Source of the DNA: Hyphomicrobium sp.
GTDB taxonomy: Bacteria; Pseudomonadota; Alphaproteobacteria; Rhizobiales; Hyphomicrobiaceae
Length of the DNA: 64,000 bases
Reading direction: 5' to 3'
Assembly (NCBI GenBank): GCA_016793445.1
Contig: JAEUME010000001.1
Span: 186,001 to 250,000 of the forward strand
The notes under the pieces were generated by a model. That model was not told where the DNA came from. It ran no database searches and saw nothing but the letters and a program-made list of their open reading frames with translations. The position numbers were made by a program, and so were the translations under genes. This document shows, in pieces, positions 1,528-42,992 of this stretch (position 1 is its first letter; the number at the start of each line of letters is the position of its first letter).

Positions 1528-4500
1528 ATGGCTTGGGCATTCGACGCTTCGCTACCGACTACAAATACGTCAACTCTGATCCAGTTCAACGTTGTGGGCG
1601 GTGTCGCTGGTGACACCGTCAAAATCAACGGCACGGGACTTTCCTACAACGCAACGACTGGCGCGATGTCGGGCTCGATCACGTCGATCCAGCTGACCAA
1701 CTCATCCGGCACGGTCCAGACGATCGCGATCGGCACTGCTGACTCCGCGACGGAAGCCGCACGTCAGCTGCAGGCCACAGCCGATGTAACCCAATTCCTT
1801 GCACATGCCAAAGCCACCGCCACGAATATCGCAGCGCTTGGCGTGACCTTTAACAGCATCAACCTGGCTGGCGCTGTCGAGACCGATCCCGGCTCGATTC
1901 TGACCGTCCCGGTCCTCAACTCGGGTACCCTCGTCGGCTATCTCAAACTGACGGGTAGTGATCTGTATGCCAACAAGCCGTTCGCGAACGGCGATATCGA
2001 CACGGTCGAGCTGCTCACCGCTGGCGGTGCCTCCTACGGTACCCCGAAGACGATCGATTACTCCAGCTCGTCCCCGGTCGTGACGCTTGCCGAACTCGTC
2101 TACGGCCAGCGCGCCAATTTTGACCTCTTATTCGCAGCCATTACCTCGGGCAACGACACGCTGACAATCCAGCAGACCGGCGCCACAATTGACGCTGGCC
2201 TTGGCAATGATGTCATCACCGGCAGCGCCGGTATCGACACGGTCGACTACAAGTATGCAACCGGCAAGATCACCGTCGATCTCTCGGTAAACTCGGTTAC
2301 ATTCACCGACCCGCGCACCAACAACGTTTCGACTCAGACCCTGACGGGCATCGAGAACATCAACGGCTCGATGTTCAGCGACACGATCGTCGGCAACTCC
2401 GGCGACAACGTGCTGTTCGGCGGCTATGATGGCGTCAACGACAGCCTCAACGGCGGCACAGGCAACGATACCTACATCGTGATCGAGGCCGCTGGTACGG
2501 CGGGCGTGTCTGACGCCATCTCCGACACGGCCGGCACCGATACAATCATCTCCTATGCCAACCGCGATCTCGGCATTACCACCACGATCGAGAACCTCGT
2601 CCTCATGGGGTCCGCCGTGGACGGCAGGGGTAACAACCTTAACAACAGCATCACGGGCAACAGCCTCAACAACACACTCGACGGCAGGGTCGGCGCCGAC
2701 ACGATGACGGGCGGCCTCGGCGACGACACCTATACGGTGGACAACGCCGGAGACGTGATCGTCGAAACCGCAGGACAAGGCACCGATACGGTACTCGCCT
2801 CGGCAAATTTCGCGCTCACGGCTGGGGCTAACGTCGAGATCCTGCGCACGACCAACGACCTTGGCACCGGCGCGATCAACCTGACGGGCAGCTCTATCGC
2901 CAACACGATCACCGGCAACGCCGGCGCCAACCGCCTGGACGGAGGCTCCAGCGGCGATGACGGCGCGGTCGATACCCTGAATGGCGGCGGCGGCAACGAC
3001 ACCTACGTGCTCGGCGCGGGCAACGACACCGTCAACGACACCGGCGGTACCAGCGACATGATCGAGTCATCGGTCACGCGCAACCTCAACAGCTACGCCG
3101 GCATCGAACATATCCGGTTGACCGGTACGGGCGCCGCCAACGCGACCGGCACCAGCGCGGCCAACATCATGTACGGCAACGACGGCGCCAACACCCTCAC
3201 CGGAGGCGGTGGCAACGACACCATGGTCGGCGGCGCCGGCAATGACGTCTTCGTGTTCGACGCCCAGGGACGCGATATCGTCACCGACTTTGGCAACACC
3301 TACTTGCGCGCCACGCTCAACGGAACATCCGTGGTGAGCCCATCGGGCAGCACGGCGACCGGCCAGGCAACGCTGCAGATGAACCACGCTAACAATCGCG
3401 TGTCGATCAACGTTACGACATCGGGCCTCGATTGGAACTCGGCCCACACGACCAACAACACGGTCACCAACTTTGGCGTATACCAGGGTGCCGTAGGCGC
3501 CAACGGCACGCTGAGCCACGACGTTCTGGCGTCCACGAACGCCCAGAACAAAACCGGCTACACCGGCAAGACCGACGTGTGGAACACTGCCAACGGTCTG
3601 ACTGGCGCTGACGTCACCGCACTTCTGGCCGGTACGAAGTACCTGGAAGTCGACACGATCCAGCATAACACCCCCGGCGACATCCGCGGACAACTGACGG
3701 CTGTTGCCGGCAGCGCCGACAAGATCTCGGTCGCGGGTCTCGGCATCAACTCGTTCGACACGATCCAGGTCCTTGCACGCAACAGTGGCTCCAGCCTGCT
3801 TCTGCAGAAATGGACCAACGATACCATGCACATGTTGACGTTGCAGAATACCCAGCTTGCGGATATGTCGGCTGCCGACTTTGTCTTCAACGCCACAGTA
3901 TCCAACGACACCATTGCAGGTAGCGCGGGCCGCGACGACCTGTTCGGCGGTCTGGGCAACGACACCATCAACGGCAACGCTGGCATCGATCGTCTTTTCG
4001 GCGAGGGCGGCAATGATACCCTCAATGGCGGCACAGGCGGCGATCAGATGTATGGCGGCCTCGGCGACGATACCTACTACGTCGACTCGGCCTCCGACTA
4101 CGTTGTCGACACGGGCGGCACTGACACGATGCGGACCTCCATCAACAACACGTTGAACATGGTTTCGCGCGCCAATATCGAGGACCTGGAAACTTCCAAC
4201 GCTGCCGCCACCACGGCAATGACGCTCACCGGCAACGCCCTCGACAACCACATCACGGGCAACGCCGGCGCCAATACCCTGAACGGCTGGACCGGCAACG
4301 ACACGATGGACGGCGGCGCGGGGAACGACATCTACTATGTCGACTCCCAGAATGACGTCATCATCGACGCTTCAGGCACCGACACTGTTCGCGCGACCGT
4401 CAACTACACGCTGGCAAACGATTTGGCCATCGAGGCTATCGAGGCAGGCACGACGACTGTCGCGCTGAATTTGTACGGCAACAATCTCGGTCAGCGCGTG

Positions 4501-35900: not shown

Positions 35901-36239
35901 TCACTTGCCAGACTCGGAACCCGCGCTTGCTTCCACGACCACGTTTTTCAGCAACCCGGAGGGATCGCGCACCACGAGGCGGTAGACGTAGCGGGTCCCG
36001 GCCTGGCAAAGCGTGGCTTGGACGATCTTGCCGGTAACGCCATTGCGCCCCTCACGCGCCACTTGCTCAACCGTGCGCAAGCCCTGCTCGCGCACGATGG
36101 TTCCAGCTGCGCCCCAATCGGGGACGCAGCCATCATCGGCGTACGAGGGCACCGAAGACAGTGCTGCAGCGGAGAGCGATGCGGCGGCGGTCAAGGCCCA
36201 TATGGCTGGGCCACCCACCCGTTTGAGGACGCGGTTCAT
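35901..36239 (-). CDS. Small exported PepSY-like protein, positional counterpart of FeuN
   Basis: A 112-residue protein with a signal peptide cleaved near SYADDG (about residue 34). The rest includes GKIVQATLCQAGTRYVYRLV followed by RDPSGLLKNVVVEASAG, a pattern resembling PepSY domains. It lies 69 bases upstream of feuP on the same strand. In Sinorhizobium meliloti the gene at this place encodes FeuN, a small periplasmic inhibitor of FeuQ. That this is FeuN is inferred from position, size and export. Confidence 0.7.
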   Translation of the reverse strand: MNRVLKRVGGPAIWALTAAASLSAAALSSVPSYADDGCVPDWGAAGTIVREQGLRTVEQVAREGRNGVTGKIVQATLCQAGTRYVYRLVVRDPSGLLKNVVVEASAGSESGK

Positions 36240-36294: not shown

Positions 36295-37692
36295 TTAGAG
36301 CTTGAGGTTCACGCTCTTGCGTGAAATGGGACTGTTCGCCTTCAGGCGCCCGTAGATCGTAAGCAACGTGCCGATCAAAGCCATAACGGCCTGGATGGCG
36401 CCCATGGTCTGCTCTCCGGCCTGACGCACGACATCGCCGGAAAGATCGATGCCGATGAGCGGCCCAAGTGCGGGGGCAACTGTTGCTGCCGCGGTGATCA
36501 ACGCGCCCCAGATGGTCTTTGAGTGCCCCCACCACTTGGTAGACGGCTGTTCGTTCGTATCATCGGGGTAAGTGATCGGGTCCATTGGTAATGCTCCTTT
36601 TGTTGGCGGCTTGCTTTCCGGGGTCTCGGGAAGCGATGCCGTGGACTTGTCTGCAGGCGATGTTTTCATGGACGCGACAAGGCGCGCCGCCTGCTCTTCG
36701 CCGGCATCGACGCGCGCCAGCCAGCCGCGACCGAACCGCCAGAAGTGCGCAAGCGAGCGATAGCGCTGGCGCCGCAGGGCCGCGTAGGCTGCCACGACCT
36801 CCAAAGGTGGCCGGGCTCCCACTGCCGCAAGCGTCTTGGGACCGATCTCTCCGTCCACGGCGCTGCCGGCCGCGCGTTGCAGCAGCCGGGCGGCCCCCGC
36901 CACACCGTGATTGACGCAAGCATCGAAATGAAAGAGCGCCACGGGCGGAGGAAGTTTGGCGCAATGTCCCGGCTGCCAATATCGAGTGCGATAGATGTGG
37001 CGCACCGTCTCGTCGGGAATCCGCTTCAGCTCTTCAATAAGTCGCGCGCGCGAGGATGCGTCGAGGCTGACGCCCAGTTGACGCGCAAAGACCTCCAGCG
37101 TGATGCCGCGATTGGTCGGCCCGCCAGGATCGTAAGGATCATTGGAGAACCCACCCTCCATCTTCAGCACGTGCGCCAGTGCGATCGCAAATACCGGGTC
37201 TGCGTCCCGGCCGTGTTCGTTTGATGCGGACGCAGCCTGCGCTGGCTCGGCCACCTCATCCGGTGCCGGATCCTTCGGCCAACGCAACCCCAGCAGCCGT
37301 TTCGCATCGAACGCCGCAACCGAGACGCTGTCGTCCTGATTGCCACCGAGAAGAAAAAGCGCGCGCTCGTTGCGGCCGACGAGGAATCCGACGTGACCGG
37401 CTTGCGGATCGCTGCCACGGCTCAAGACGGCAACCGCGCCTACGCGTCCGTCCTCGAGGGGCGTACCCCAATCGAGGTACGAGCGGGCGAGCAGCGAGCC
37501 CGTTCCCGCCATGCCTGCGCGCGCCAGCATCGCGCCGGTGAAGGCTGCGCACCACGCAACGGCATCCTGTTTGATGTCGGCCCGCCCGGCCTCGCGGTAA
37601 TAGGCGAGCACGGCTGGCGTGTTGCCGGGCCCTAGCGTTTCGCGCACGCCGAATTCAGCCCACGCCGCCGCCATCCAGGCTGGTTGGTCCAT
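36295..37692 (-). CDS. Fused double-domain endolysin with C-terminal holin-like segment
   Basis: A 465-residue protein with three parts. Residues 1-140 form a TIGR02594/NlpC-like peptidase domain with a cysteine in VAWCAAFTG (Cys48) and a histidine in AGHVGFLVG. Residues 165-335 form a GH108-type muramidase plus peptidoglycan-binding region, with the catalytic Glu in KMEGGFSNDPYDPGG (about residue 179). Residues 370-465 carry two hydrophobic helices (TIWGALITAAATVAPALG and GAIQAVMALIGTLLTIYG), as in small phage holins. It starts 36 bases after the end of gp15, as the last gene of the GTA set, and would serve particle release. An internal start could give the holin part alone. Confidence 0.85.
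   Translation of the reverse strand: MDQPAWMAAAWAEFGVRETLGPGNTPAVLAYYREAGRADIKQDAVAWCAAFTGAMLARAGMAGTGSLLARSYLDWGTPLEDGRVGAVAVLSRGSDPQAGHVGFLVGRNERALFLLGGNQDDSVSVAAFDAKRLLGLRWPKDPAPDEVAEPAQAASASNEHGRDADPVFAIALAHVLKMEGGFSNDPYDPGGPTNRGITLEVFARQLGVSLDASSRARLIEELKRIPDETVRHIYRTRYWQPGHCAKLPPPVALFHFDACVNHGVAGAARLLQRAAGSAVDGEIGPKTLAAVGARPPLEVVAAYAALRRQRYRSLAHFWRFGRGWLARVDAGEEQAARLVASMKTSPADKSTASLPETPESKPPTKGALPMDPITYPDDTNEQPSTKWWGHSKTIWGALITAAATVAPALGPLIGIDLSGDVVRQAGEQTMGAIQAVMALIGTLLTIYGRLKANSPISRKSVNLKL
36585..36600 (-). promoter_or_regulatory. Internal ribosome-binding site and ATG for a separate holin-like product
   Basis: AAAGGAG at 36600-36594 lies 8 bases before an in-frame ATG (codon 370, 36585-36583) of the endolysin gene. 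Starting there would give a 96-residue protein with both hydrophobic helices. The site is as good as most gene starts here, so dual translation is likely. Confidence 0.65.
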
Positions 37693-37728: not shown

Positions 37729-40700
37729 TCAGACGATCGCTGCGCCCGGGCTACCGCGTCCGAAACGCGCGCTCATCTGGTAGACCCGCACCGCCACCGA
37801 GGACTGCGCGGCGCCGAAATCCGCAAGCTGCTGAGCTGCGGTGTAGACGGCGCTCGCGCTTGCCGAAGAGATTGTCCGCTTGACGGTTGCGCCGGACACG
37901 ATGTCGATCTCATAGCTCTCGACATCTTCTGATAACGGCACGTCGCTCGCATCCCAATTGTCGCCGCCTGCGCGCGTGCGGCGGATCCAGCTCAAGGTCA
38001 GATCGCCTCCCGCGGCGCGCGCGCCCCTGATGTGGACAGGCGCATAGGGTCGCAAGCCTACGCCGGTGAACGCGTGCGTTTGCGTCGCGTAGGAGACATC
38101 ACCGATGCCCCGGTTGGAAGGACCATAGCGCCACGTGAAGGGCAGCCCCAGTTGATCGAAGGTGATGCCTGCCCTCTGCACCGCGCCGTCGAGCAAAACG
38201 AAGCGTGCGCCCGCCGCCAGCAAAGGCGCGATCGCACCCTCCGTGCCGGCCTGACCTCGCAACAACCCGCTCAACTCATATGTGGCTGCGCCCACGAGCG
38301 CCGCGTTGAGGAACTGCACGATCTCCCATGATCCGCTCGCCGTCTCGATGGCGGCCGCATTCACGCCGCCCAGCACACTGACGAGATCCGCCGAGGTCAC
38401 AGATCCATGGGAAAGCTGCACGGTGATGCGGTTCGCCCAATCGATCCGCCCTTCAGGCCCGCCCGCCACGGCATTGAGCGTGCGGCCCATGGTGGCCGGA
38501 GCGGCGAGAACCGTCTTCAGTGCGAAGCCAGACGTCTGTGCGGACGCATAGACCGCAACACCGCCCGGCCATGGCACCTGCACGGCCGCCACGTACCCGT
38601 CTGCCGCGTCGCGCGTTGCATCGAGCAACGGCAGGTCGAGAAATACCAGGGTGGGCGATCCAATCTGCACGGGCACGGCTGGCCGCGCAGGCCGTTCAGG
38701 AACGGCGACGGCACCATAGACGTCGGGATCCGCGGCCAGCGCGCTCACCGTGCGCGCGCCGTTTTCTGCGATCTCGGTCACGCGCACCAGGCGCTCGCGT
38801 CCTTCCTGCGTCACGCGCACCAGATCGCCGGGCTCGACGCACAGCGCACTGGGCGGCAGAACGAAATTCGCCCGTTCGCGCGCCGCCCATGTTTCGAACA
38901 ACCACGTTTCCGCGATCTGCCCAGCCAGCGTCTCGTCGAGCACGATGGCAAGATCGGCTTGCGCGGTCCGCCCGCTTGCCCCCGCCAGACGCCGTGCCTC
39001 GGCCACCGCCTGCTGATAGTCGGTCTCGGCGGAAAGAAAGCGCAGTTTCGCGCTTGCGGGTAGCTCTGTTTCCTGCCCCCGCGTCAAGGACAACAGGGCC
39101 GCACCGGGCCGTGTCTCGACGAGTTCATCCTCACGCAACGTCAGGACCGCTGCTTCGCTTGCCCGGTGCCTGAACTGAATTTGTCCCGCGCTCTCTATGC
39201 TGTCGAAGAAGTAGGCGAGTTCCAGCGGCTGGAGTGCGTCGCGCGCGGCCATGATCCTATCGATAACGTAGCCCGGAACGATTCCATGCAACGCTTGCGC
39301 ATTGAATGCGCTGAAATCGTAGTCGGTCAGCATCTGCTGGACGAGCTCAGCCAGCGGCGCGCTCGCAAGCCGGCCATTCAACCAATGCCCGAATTGCCAG
39401 TTGTCGCCGTCACCCCAGACATCCGTTTGCCGGGGAAATGCCGGATAAGGCCGCGCGTCCCAGCAATAGACGTGCGTGCGCGTCACATCCACCATGCGCT
39501 GCCCCGTCACCGCGGAGACAGGATTGGCGCCCGCGATGTAGCCCTGCGCCGTCCAATCGAAGGCGCGGATGAAGGCCTGGAGGAAGCGGCGCTGCATGAA
39601 GTCGTCGCGCACGCGATTGGAATAATAGGGGTAGAAACTCTCCGAGCTTTTGGGATCGACGAACACGTTGGGCTGGTTTGCGCCCTTGTCGACCGCGGGG
39701 CAGCCCACTTCCATGAACCAGAAGGGCTTGGACTGGGGAACCCACGCCGTCGCCGTCGCGCTCTCAACGCCGCCTGGACGGTTGTAGTGCGCGTTCATCC
39801 ACCACGACTTGATGTCCTTGTAGCGAAACACCCAAGGCTTGCCCGCCCCGTCGTTGATCGGCGAGCGCACCTGCGCGTCGCGATCTGCTTGCGAAGCGTA
39901 ATACCAGTCGTATCCCTCGCCGCCCTGAACGTTCCCCTTGAGATAATCCAAGTCATAGATGGAGCGATGCCCCGCCATATAGTCCGCATGATCGCGTCCA
40001 TCGCGCCAATCGGCGAGCGGCCAATAGACGTCGAGTGCAATCGCGTCGACGGAGGCTGATGCCCACAAGGAATCGAGATGGAAATAGACATCGTGGCTGC
40101 CGTCGGCAGGCTGGTGGCCGAAGTATTCCGACCAATCTGCAGCATAGGAGACCTTCACCCCGGCTCCCAGAACGGACTTCACATCTTGCGCAAGGCTCAC
40201 GAGCGCATTGACGAAGGGATATGTTCCAGCCGCCGAGCGCACCCAGGTCAGACCGCGCAGCTCCGATCCGATCAGGAACGCGCTGACCCCGCCGGCGGCC
40301 TTGGCCAGATACGCCTGATGCAGCACCATGCGCCGGTAGGACCATTCATCGGGTCCCGAATAGACGACGCTGTCACCGGCCAGCGCAAAGTGCGATGGCG
40401 CCGCAGTGCCGGCGAACGCGGCAATCTGAGCCGCCGCCGCTGCGGTTTTATCCGGCGAGCCCACCATACTTGGCGCGGGATGACACGTCATGCGTCCGCG
40501 CCAGGGATAGGCGGCCTGCTCTGCGCCACCATAGGGGTCCGGCAACCCGTTGCCGGCGGGTATGTCCATCAGGACGAACGGGGTCAGCGTGACTGAGAAC
40601 CCGCGCGCGGCAAGATCGCGGATTGCGCCGATCACCGTCTGATCGGACGGCGTACCGCCATACGCGGGCCTGCCATCCTTGAGGCTGACCTGATACGCGG

Positions 40701-41685
40701 TCGCGCGCGTGCGCCCGGCCACCGACCATTGCAGCGGTTCGGTTTGCGTCGTCGCGTTTTCGATGCCGGGCGCAATCTGGCAAGATCCCGCGCGCAGATC
40801 CGTGCCGAACCAGCTCACCACCAGGGAGGCCGCGTGCGCATTGGGCAATGTCGCCTGCAGCTGATCGATACCGGCATCCCAGTCCGTGACCGCTTGGCGC
40901 GTGTGCACGTTGACGGCCTCGAAAACGCCCTCCAGCACGGACTTGCTCACGGGCTCGGTCGCGTACACGAACTCGCCCGAGCCCGGAATGATGACGACGC
41001 CGCGGATGTCCGTCTCACCCCCCGCGACACTGCGGTACACTTCAAAGGAGAGCTGGGGCACGCGGTTGCCGAAATCGGAAAGCGCCAGACGCTGAAAAAC
41101 CACATAGGCAACGCCGCGAAACGCCGGAGCGTACTGCGCGCCGATGTCCGCCGCGATCAAGCCGTCGGGCGCTTGCGTCTCGGTGCCTGTGTAGAGCCGC
41201 CACGTGATGTTCGACAGATCGAGCTCGACGCCGTCCGCCCAGACGCGGCCGATGCGCGTAATCGGTCCCTCGCACAGCGCAACCGCGAAGCTTGCATAGT
41301 AGCGGTATTCGGTCGCCTGCGTGCCGCCGCTTGCCCCGCCAAGTCCCTTGCCGCTGCCCGAAGACTGCGAACTGGTGACGATTTCTTCCTCGAAGTCCTG
41401 CGCCCAGATCACCTGCCCGCCCAACCGCGCGCGGCCATAGAGACGGGGGATGTTCGCGCCTTCCGTCGATGCCGTGACTTGCAGATTGCTGAGCCGCGGA
41501 CCTTCGACCGCGCGGCTCGCGCCGGAACTGCCAAACAGGGCGTTATCAACGAACGAGCCCGCCAGCGCGCCTATCTGACTGCCGATCGCAGCGCCCGACA
41601 GCGTCGTGCCGAGAATGCCGATCCCAGCGGGCAGCAGTGCGCTGCCGGCGGCTGCCCCAACGGCTGCAAGTGCAAGCGTCGCCAT
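37729..41685 (-). CDS. GTA host-specificity/tail-tip protein gp15 (TIM-barrel glycoside hydrolase domain)
   Basis: A 1318-residue tail-tip protein of the RcGTA gp15 type. A glycine/alanine-rich hydrophobic N-terminus is followed by tail-tip domains, then a TIM-barrel glycoside-hydrolase-like region (about residues 400-750, including SLWASASVDAIALDVYWPL and FWFMEVGCPAVDKGANQPN), a phage-tail domain and C-terminal beta-rich modules. It would contact the recipient cell surface. It starts 3 bases after the gp14 gene, with GGAG overlapping the gp14 end. Confidence 0.92.
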   Translation of the reverse strand: MATLALAAVGAAAGSALLPAGIGILGTTLSGAAIGSQIGALAGSFVDNALFGSSGASRAVEGPRLSNLQVTASTEGANIPRLYGRARLGGQVIWAQDFEEEIVTSSQSSGSGKGLGGASGGTQATEYRYYASFAVALCEGPITRIGRVWADGVELDLSNITWRLYTGTETQAPDGLIAADIGAQYAPAFRGVAYVVFQRLALSDFGNRVPQLSFEVYRSVAGGETDIRGVVIIPGSGEFVYATEPVSKSVLEGVFEAVNVHTRQAVTDWDAGIDQLQATLPNAHAASLVVSWFGTDLRAGSCQIAPGIENATTQTEPLQWSVAGRTRATAYQVSLKDGRPAYGGTPSDQTVIGAIRDLAARGFSVTLTPFVLMDIPAGNGLPDPYGGAEQAAYPWRGRMTCHPAPSMVGSPDKTAAAAAQIAAFAGTAAPSHFALAGDSVVYSGPDEWSYRRMVLHQAYLAKAAGGVSAFLIGSELRGLTWVRSAAGTYPFVNALVSLAQDVKSVLGAGVKVSYAADWSEYFGHQPADGSHDVYFHLDSLWASASVDAIALDVYWPLADWRDGRDHADYMAGHRSIYDLDYLKGNVQGGEGYDWYYASQADRDAQVRSPINDGAGKPWVFRYKDIKSWWMNAHYNRPGGVESATATAWVPQSKPFWFMEVGCPAVDKGANQPNVFVDPKSSESFYPYYSNRVRDDFMQRRFLQAFIRAFDWTAQGYIAGANPVSAVTGQRMVDVTRTHVYCWDARPYPAFPRQTDVWGDGDNWQFGHWLNGRLASAPLAELVQQMLTDYDFSAFNAQALHGIVPGYVIDRIMAARDALQPLELAYFFDSIESAGQIQFRHRASEAAVLTLREDELVETRPGAALLSLTRGQETELPASAKLRFLSAETDYQQAVAEARRLAGASGRTAQADLAIVLDETLAGQIAETWLFETWAARERANFVLPPSALCVEPGDLVRVTQEGRERLVRVTEIAENGARTVSALAADPDVYGAVAVPERPARPAVPVQIGSPTLVFLDLPLLDATRDAADGYVAAVQVPWPGGVAVYASAQTSGFALKTVLAAPATMGRTLNAVAGGPEGRIDWANRITVQLSHGSVTSADLVSVLGGVNAAAIETASGSWEIVQFLNAALVGAATYELSGLLRGQAGTEGAIAPLLAAGARFVLLDGAVQRAGITFDQLGLPFTWRYGPSNRGIGDVSYATQTHAFTGVGLRPYAPVHIRGARAAGGDLTLSWIRRTRAGGDNWDASDVPLSEDVESYEIDIVSGATVKRTISSASASAVYTAAQQLADFGAAQSSVAVRVYQMSARFGRGSPGAAIV

Positions 41686-41688
41686 GCG

Positions 41689-42123
41689 TCATGCTCCAGG
41701 AAATCGAAAGACGGCTGCGATACGCCGCCGCCACCATGGCGATAGCGCCACCTCCGCCACCGCCACGCCTTCCATGGCGTGGATCATGGTGGAGGGCCCG
41801 GCGAGGATCGCCGCGTGCTTGGCGGCGGCTCCGCGCTTCATCCGGAAGATCACCACATCACCCGCCGCGCGATCCTCGACAGCGACCTCGATGAGGTGCC
41901 GCCGCGCGGCTTGCAACATCGCTTCGCCTTGATCGGTTTCGGCCCAATCAGGCGCGTAGGGCGGCGGCGCCTCGGCATCATGGCCGTAGATCTCGCGCCA
42001 GACGCCGCGCACCAGGCCCAGGCAATCCGCGCCCACGCCCTTCAAGCTCGCTTGGTGATGATAGGGCGTACCGATCCAGCCGCGCGCGGCCGCGACGACA
42101 AGAGCCTGCCTGTGCGGATCCAT
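41689..42123 (-). CDS. GTA gp14, NlpC/P60 family cell-wall peptidase
   Basis: A 144-residue NlpC/P60 protein. The catalytic cysteine is in GVGADCLGLVRGV (about residue 34) and the histidine in AAKHAAILAG (about residue 102). In RcGTA the protein at this position is a tail-associated peptidoglycan hydrolase. The start at 42123 overlaps the gp13 stop (TGATG); the long open frame to 42303 is not real coding. Confidence 0.92.
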   Translation of the reverse strand: MDPHRQALVVAAARGWIGTPYHHQASLKGVGADCLGLVRGVWREIYGHDAEAPPPYAPDWAETDQGEAMLQAARRHLIEVAVEDRAAGDVVIFRMKRGAAAKHAAILAGPSTMIHAMEGVAVAEVALSPWWRRRIAAVFRFPGA

Positions 42124-42992
42124 CACGCACCGCCCCGCCGGCTCGCGATGCGCGTGACGTAATCGTTGCCGGGCATATCGGGGAAGCCGCGAAAATTGAC
42201 GGCGTTCGAAAAACGCGTTGCGCATGTTGCGATGCGCTTGTCGCAGCCAGCCGTCACGATGATCGTGTCGCCCGCGAGCGGCGGGCCCGCCGCCTCGCTC
42301 CACAACTCGATGGTGACCATGCCCGGCGTCTTGATGTGGCTCTTGATCTCGATTTTCAGTCCATCGGATGGGCCGCTCGCAAAACGGGCGAGGCCACGGG
42401 TGAAGAAGCCGCTGGCGAATCCGTCGAGCCCCGCCATATGGAATTTGCGTGCCGACAAGACGGCACTGATGGTACCCGTCGCCTGATAGGCTGGCGTATC
42501 GAGATGGAGACCGCAGCGCGCATCGCCGAGATCCGCGTCACATGTGTATTGATAAAGCCTGCCCTTGGGCTGCTGCAGGTAATGCGCTAGGCCACGCACC
42601 TCGGCGGTGAAGCTCGCACCCGAGCGGCGCACCTCCCCCAGGCTGCCCGTACGCATCAGCACGCGCTCTTCAGGATCCTGCCAGTTGACGCGAAAGATCT
42701 CGACGCCTGCATCGTCGTAGCGGCCGGCCGCCAGATCGTCTTCACCCAACGCCGCTGAGCTCAGCGCACCGGTTACTTCCAGATTGTCAACCGACAGCCC
42801 GAGCGCATCCGTGATCTCGCTGGCGGTGAAGCCTGTCGCCGCCTCGAAAACCGTGCCGTCGAACGTGAGCGGCCGGTCGTGATCGGTAAAGCCCTGTACG
42901 GCGCCGTCCTTGCGCGTCAGCCGCCAGCACCAGCACAGCGTCGTTGCGCCGTTATCCAAATGGGCTTGCAGCCCGGAACTCAAATCCTTCAC
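42123..42992 (-). CDS. GTA gp13, DUF2163 tail hub/baseplate protein
   Basis: A 289-residue protein with the DUF2163 N-terminal region and the C-terminal FAD/BR0599-like region (RLYQYTCDADLGDARCGL). Several cysteines are conserved in this family, which forms the tail hub in RcGTA. I place the start at a GTG (42992) that overlaps the gp12 stop by 4 bases (GTGA); the frame stays open to 43379, but that part is a shadow of gp12. Confidence 0.9.
   Translation of the reverse strand: MKDLSSGLQAHLDNGATTLCWCWRLTRKDGAVQGFTDHDRPLTFDGTVFEAATGFTASEITDALGLSVDNLEVTGALSSAALGEDDLAAGRYDDAGVEIFRVNWQDPEERVLMRTGSLGEVRRSGASFTAEVRGLAHYLQQPKGRLYQYTCDADLGDARCGLHLDTPAYQATGTISAVLSARKFHMAGLDGFASGFFTRGLARFASGPSDGLKIEIKSHIKTPGMVTIELWSEAAGPPLAGDTIIVTAGCDKRIATCATRFSNAVNFRGFPDMPGNDYVTRIASRRGGA

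Follow-up and report, generated by a model that had tools for sequence, protein, structure and literature searches.

Gene transfer agents (GTAs) are virus-like particles that carry DNA from one cell to another. We found that the GTA cluster of a Hyphomicrobium sp. contains a single gene in which two predicted wall hydrolases are joined in frame to a holin-like membrane domain, and that this domain is preceded by a conserved internal start of its own. Fusion and internal start are retained together across Hyphomicrobiaceae and related Hyphomicrobiales families. We consider it likely that this gene serves lysis for the GTA cluster and has two products, encoding a membrane-anchored bifunctional endolysin together with an excess of free holin. 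The window analysed here is a 64,000-nucleotide stretch of the Hyphomicrobium genome (assembly GCA_016793445.1, contig JAEUME010000001.1, positions 186,001 to 250,000), and the features below are numbered from its first letter.

36295..37692, minus strand: fused lysis gene, 465 aa, with TIGR02594 peptidase, GH108 muramidase, linker and putative two-helix holin (open reading frame, profile matches, model)
37279..37680, minus strand: TIGR02594 domain, aa 5-138, papain-like NlpC/P60-CHAP fold (TIGR02594, 104.9 bits; Foldseek matches to NlpC/P60 autolysins)
36904..37176, minus strand: predicted GH108 muramidase domain, aa 173-263 (PF05838, 85.4 bits; Foldseek; conserved Glu179)
36712..36894, minus strand: PG_binding_3 domain, aa 267-327 (PF09374, 35.6 bits)
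36538..36660, minus strand: variable linker, aa 345-385 (length varies in relatives, always by multiples of 3 nt)
36594..36600, minus strand: internal Shine-Dalgarno motif AAAGGAG (direct reading; AAGGAG-type motif conserved in relatives)
36583..36585, minus strand: internal start codon ATG, Met370 (8 nt past the Shine-Dalgarno motif; Met370 nearly invariant)
36295..36585, minus strand: predicted short product from Met370, a 96-aa stand-alone holin (phrog_962, phrog_29088; the ATG heads a separate gene in relatives L036, L071 and L111)
36454..36531, minus strand: predicted holin transmembrane helix 1, aa 388-413, rich in Ala, Gly and Thr (model helix; hydropathy maximum 1.82)
36337..36438, minus strand: predicted holin transmembrane helix 2, helix at aa 419-452 with a positively charged tail behind it (model helix; hydropathy maximum 1.63)
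37729..41685, minus strand: GTA megatron, the gp15 equivalent, directly upstream of the lysis gene (NF048004, 1827.7 bits)
41689..42303, minus strand: GTA NlpC/P60 cell wall peptidase, the gp14 equivalent (TIGR02219, 205 bits)

The lysis gene is a single open reading frame of 465 codons on the minus strand (37692..36295) that begins with ATG, and stops break the reading frame on the plus strand of 36295-37692. A preliminary description of this DNA had placed the gene directly after gp15, and this was borne out, its start lying 36 nt past the stop of the megatron gene. The adjoining capsid, connector, tail and megatron genes are of the RcGTA type, with profile matches to NF048004, TIGR02219, TIGR02218, TIGR02217 and TIGR02126, and head closure, connector, HK97 capsid, prohead protease and portal genes were identified as well. 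The cluster runs in the order portal, prohead protease, HK97 capsid, connector, head closure, major tail protein, tape measure (NF058675, 168 bits, under its cut-off of 220), distal tail protein, hub, NlpC peptidase and megatron. Immediately downstream of the lysis gene is one for a secreted 112-aa protein without a Pfam match (35901-36239, minus strand), followed by a two-component regulator pair; several relatives have small proteins resembling the 112-aa protein in the equivalent place. We also observed that many 8-22 kb viral contigs in IMG/VR (L144-L187) are GTA clusters, and that several of these terminate a few bases from the lysis-gene stop, which is consistent with this being the cluster's last gene.

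Profile matches and hydrophobic helices upheld the earlier description of the frame as a peptidase, a GH108 muramidase and a two-helix holin-like end. The peptidase part matched TIGR02594 over the whole profile at 104.9 bits (cut-off 70.55), with Pfam CHAP sub-threshold at 18.8 vs 26. Its model resembles NlpC/P60 autolysins and MepS by Foldseek, and the previous label of an NlpC-like peptidase therefore holds at the level of fold but not as a family name, which is TIGR02594. The next domain is a predicted muramidase by family, matching PF05838 at 85.4 vs 21.2 bits with an invariant Glu179 in the EGG motif. Together with PG_binding_3 (aa 173-327), its closest solved structures are Brucella SagA, Neisseria NMB1012 and Salmonella TtsA, and SagA (7dnp) matched the GH108 domain with a TMt of 0.86. 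The protein falls outside the holin-associated N-acetylmuramidases of NF040573 (76.4 vs 240 bits). Cys48, His100 and Asn118 of the TIGR02594 domain are invariant among relatives, as is Glu179, and we take these four residues to be catalytic from what is known of peptidase and muramidase families.

Residues 370-465 matched phage holin profiles weakly (phrog_962, E 9.5e-5; phrog_29088, 6.7e-8), PHROG matches being without a curated cut-off, and fell short of the curated Pfam holin cut-off (PF04531, 13.7 vs 22 bits). This part has the traits typical of the functional class of phage holins, namely a small product, one to three transmembrane helices (two here), a charged C-terminus and a position beside an endolysin. 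Taken together, the profile matches below the Pfam cut-offs and the topology point weakly but specifically to a putative holin. Among relatives, the mean net charge of the holin part is -2.3 in the inter-helix loop and +3.9 in the C-tail. By the positive-inside rule, positively charged ends are expected on the cytoplasmic side, and the charge distribution thus suggests that both holin termini are cytoplasmic (N-in/C-in). Across a sample of 289 genomes from the class, the strong form of this holin was confined to the order, where seven families have it. We rejected the Rhodobacter-type GTA holin family PF11351 (GTA_holin_3TM) as its identity, with matches in 0 of 22 genomes of the genus, the present one included, in a search that recovered the family from 35 of 142 genomes across the class.

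The preliminary description had proposed comparing fused and split forms in relatives. In every locus retrieved, the peptidase, muramidase and holin parts were each searched for on their own, without presupposing a common frame; the loci came from isolates, MAGs and IMG/VR contigs, and the relatives with names are nearly all Hyphomicrobium or other Hyphomicrobiaceae. This gave 137 non-redundant holin loci, 131 of them with GH108 directly upstream, leaving out L035 (contig edge) and L037 (degenerate). The fused C-terminus proved to be retained: linker length in nt was divisible by 3 in 131/131 loci, with 28 different lengths, and one open frame ran through GH108 and the holin part in 129/131. 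The identical fusion in more than 120 loci from all three sources rules out an artefact of one assembly. A quick tree of 123 of the 131 loci required at least 74 changes of linker length, with 0 frameshifts in the 131 linkers, and these length changes are a better measure than locus counts, which are non-independent because the loci are related. The linker, of ~45 residues, is predicted to be disordered at aa 348-391 (model pLDDT < 50). The upstream TIGR02594 domain is missing in at least three fused loci (L033, L034 and L051). L033 (G003; L033:1509-3272, minus strand) comes from a Hyphomicrobium genome whose GTA cluster has decayed: through a large deletion, the portal gene now runs in frame into the GH108 domain halfway along, with the intact holin and its internal start behind. 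It is counted among the 129 fused loci but says nothing in favour of function. L034 (G009) may resemble it.

The internal start showed the same degree of conservation. Direct reading confirmed the earlier observation that AAAGGAG (36600-36594) lies exactly 8 nt before the in-frame ATG at codon 370. An in-frame start is present within the linker in 129/129 fused loci, nearly always ATG (L188 has GTG only, and L180 was read by eye), so that all of them have the conserved internal start and ribosome site of a two-product endolysin gene. Anti-Shine-Dalgarno pairing at these starts has a median of -8.1 kcal/mol (129 loci), compared with a mean of -1.55 kcal/mol for 401 other in-frame ATGs from the genes, and reaches -5 kcal/mol or lower at 93% of internal starts vs 12% of the others. 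When synonymous codons were resampled with identical peptides, 44% reached this value. The nine of 129 internal starts with weaker pairing belong mainly to a divergent group (f33) and its kin. A chance Shine-Dalgarno motif is ruled out by this conservation beyond the resampling expectation, and the comparison across relatives went in favour of the predicted internal ribosome site. Two codon phases account for most occurrences of the motif (70 and 36 loci), which encodes KG, KE, QE or GG, and its spacing to the ATG is constant while the distance from ATG to helix ranges from 4 to 36 codons. By these measures the internal site behaves as expected of a ribosome site, kept as nucleotide sequence rather than as a peptide motif. 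Its pairing is stronger than that at the gene's own start in 86/98 loci (Wilcoxon p 1e-14), and the 96-aa product is therefore probably made in excess over the long form. The idea that the holin could also be made alone gained support from relatives that start a separate holin gene at the equivalent ATG. One of these, L036, has the holin alone directly behind the megatron, without a muramidase or other enzyme, and its start region reads AGAAGGAG-CATGCA-ATG.

Endolysins with internal translation starts, such as Ply2638A, CTP1L and LysIME-EF1, have been described from Gram-positive and mycobacterial phages (PMC9430671); the survey omitted Gram-negative phages, which were deemed unlikely to have them (PMC9430671, PMC12203907). 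As in those genes, two in-frame starts with a ribosome site each are predicted here to give a full-length enzyme and a C-terminal isoform. However, the short product of the known examples binds the wall, in some cases with a catalytic domain attached, whereas that of Hyphomicrobium is a predicted holin, in an alphaproteobacterial GTA. A natural holin-endolysin fusion, the TpeE family, has been reported from six genomes of Clostridium sporogenes, where according to the authors all endolysin is holin-fused and no free holin is described (PMC9527704). Both fusions place a hole protein and a wall hydrolase in a single polypeptide, but the C. sporogenes holin comes first and has one helix, whereas the Hyphomicrobium holin comes last, has two helices and carries its own conserved start. 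In the open-access literature (subscription papers lay outside the search), no fused endolysin-holin gene with a separate holin start and no lysis in a Hyphomicrobium GTA is reported. Thus, holin-endolysin fusion and endolysin internal start are each known apart, and their conserved combination in GTAs appears to be undescribed.

We propose that translation from the first ATG would give the 465-aa peptidase-muramidase endolysin with its two-helix membrane domain at the end, and that the internal AAAGGAG-ATG would give the 96-aa free holin, probably in excess. With N-in/C-in topology, the enzymes of the long form would remain at the cytoplasmic face. The free holin would build up and the long form would co-assemble with it through the shared membrane domain; once the holin triggers and forms a lesion, the enzymes would gain the wall via the disordered tether of ~45 residues. 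The architecture, the retained frame and the retained internal start come directly from the sequences; that both products are translated, enter the membrane, co-assemble and lyse the cell is inferred. The suggestion that one gene supplies both wall hydrolysis and membrane permeabilisation has found strong comparative support for its architecture and dual start, with the lysis function deduced from domain families and gene position. That the tethered endolysin and its own free holin co-assemble and so deliver wall hydrolysis at the membrane lesion is, in our judgement, an evenly balanced proposition.

The main rival, compatible with identical data, is that the long form acts mainly as a timer or antiholin, its bulky cytoplasmic part blocking triggering and its enzymes acting only after the short form has triggered. 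Dual-start holin genes with an inhibitory longer form are well established (PMC9636201; lambda S107, 21 S21-71), and the Hyphomicrobium gene resembles lambda S105/S107 and 21 S21-68/S21-71 in having two starts for holin products. The stronger internal start would also let the short effector outnumber the inhibitor. However, the lambda and 21 products differ by a classical extension of 2-3 residues, whereas those of Hyphomicrobium differ by 369 residues that hold two whole enzymes with invariant presumed catalytic residues, and the lysis gene is the sole GH108 gene in the genome. We therefore regard an antiholin role as the main function of the long form as unlikely, although it deserves serious consideration.

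It is improbable that only the separate products matter and that the fused frame merely arose when an endolysin-holin gene pair lost a stop codon. Such pairs do exist: in phage and prophage relatives (L212, L219, L256, L257 and L265), TIGR02594 endolysins are followed 9-44 nt on by separate small holins of the wider family, with holin homologs directly behind the endolysin in L212, L219, L256 and L265. Furthermore, two relatives (L071 and L111), the exceptions to the open frame, carry a TAG within the linker, immediately ahead of the internal start, that makes the holin a separate gene, the Shine-Dalgarno motif of L111 being weak. These natural splits show that fusion is not strictly required. 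Against a by-product stand the many linker-length changes without a frameshift and the position of both splits, which are nested inside fused clades. Their stops thus look secondary, and fusion is the older state in this family and has since been kept.

Separate holin genes also occur in a wider circle of relatives. Stand-alone distant homologs of 68-70 aa (E about 1e-8 to 1e-9) lie directly behind the megatron in other families of the order, and those of L247 and L252 have their own ribosome sites. In the simplest history, an endolysin-holin gene pair would have lost its stop while the holin retained its start, and selection would then have preserved both. A phage origin of the exact fusion was rejected: among phage records, matches to the holin part were absent and coverage of the fused protein stayed below 80%. 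Most full-length IMG/VR matches contain a megatron gene and represent GTA clusters that were classed as viral; in the divergent L188 and L190, no megatron was seen within the available stretch.

Several other arrangements were seen behind the megatron. In L258 (G153; 2269-3951, minus strand), a GH24-like lysozyme is apparently fused to a holin of similar type, possibly an independent fusion without a convincing internal ribosome site, its muramidase identified by eye only. In G151 (L252 / L261, 149-720, plus strand), a separate holin is followed by two overlapping genes that look like an Rz/Rz1 spanin pair, one for a small membrane protein and one for a lipoprotein with an LAGC box, which hints at a more complete lysis cassette behind gp15. 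L226, L243 and L251 have another conserved membrane protein of about 60 aa (ITSPAWASWL...LTTITLL) directly behind the megatron, unrelated to the holin by profile and preceding the fused gene in L226. L228 and L231 carry a lone GH108 muramidase (172 aa) behind the megatron and a 110-112 aa ORF, with a profile search finding no holin.

We see little chance that the enzyme part is a tail-tip wall hydrolase acting on the recipient cell. The place behind gp15 would fit such a role, TIGR02594 domains occur in phage baseplate hub proteins, and in this protein phrog_1259 (baseplate hub and tail lysozyme) matched aa 2-147 and Klebsiella phage hub proteins aa 2-166. Moreover, the R. capsulatus cluster peptidase p14 has been proposed to act in invasion (PMC3423380). 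However, a holin-homologous membrane domain is unlikely on a particle, GH108 is typical of endolysins and secretion-linked muramidases, stand-alone TIGR02594 endolysins are the ones that holins follow in phages, and gp14 already provides an NlpC peptidase. Finally, it is very improbable that only the fused protein matters and that the Shine-Dalgarno-like motif is a conserved lysine-glycine-glutamate linker peptide such as a protease site: KGE does precede the internal Met more often than any other peptide, above all in Hyphomicrobium, but the codon phases, the excess over synonymous resampling and the fixed ATG spacing speak against it, and the motif also heads separate holin genes.

Our preferred reading, a dual-product lysis gene, differs from what is known of GTA release elsewhere. 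The preliminary description had stated that the Rhodobacter lysis genes lie elsewhere, and published work agrees: in R. capsulatus, the putative GTA lysozyme and holin are encoded by rcc00555 and rcc00556, separate genes away from the cluster (PMC6209664, PMC3423380). Both lineages would thus use a putative wall enzyme and a holin for GTA release, from one gene inside the cluster in Hyphomicrobium and from two genes outside it in Rhodobacter. C. crescentus is without holin-endolysin homologs and releases its GTA by LypABC, a CARD-NLR-like immune system (PMC13236601). In Caulobacter lysis of the GTA producer is encoded by the host lineage, as it would be in Hyphomicrobium, but Hyphomicrobium, unlike Caulobacter, carries a predicted holin and endolysin.

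The finding extends well past the one Hyphomicrobium genome in which it was first noticed, and particle exit is understood for GTAs of few lineages only. It would mean that a large family keeps a complete lysis function beside gp15 within its GTA cluster, where a clean knock-out is feasible, and that two-product endolysin genes also exist in a Gram-negative setting, there with a holin for the second product. It also makes testable the question of why an enzyme and a hole protein should be kept both joined and separable. If true, this would be a third exit route for alphaproteobacterial GTAs, beside the Rhodobacter holin-endolysin genes and Caulobacter LypABC.
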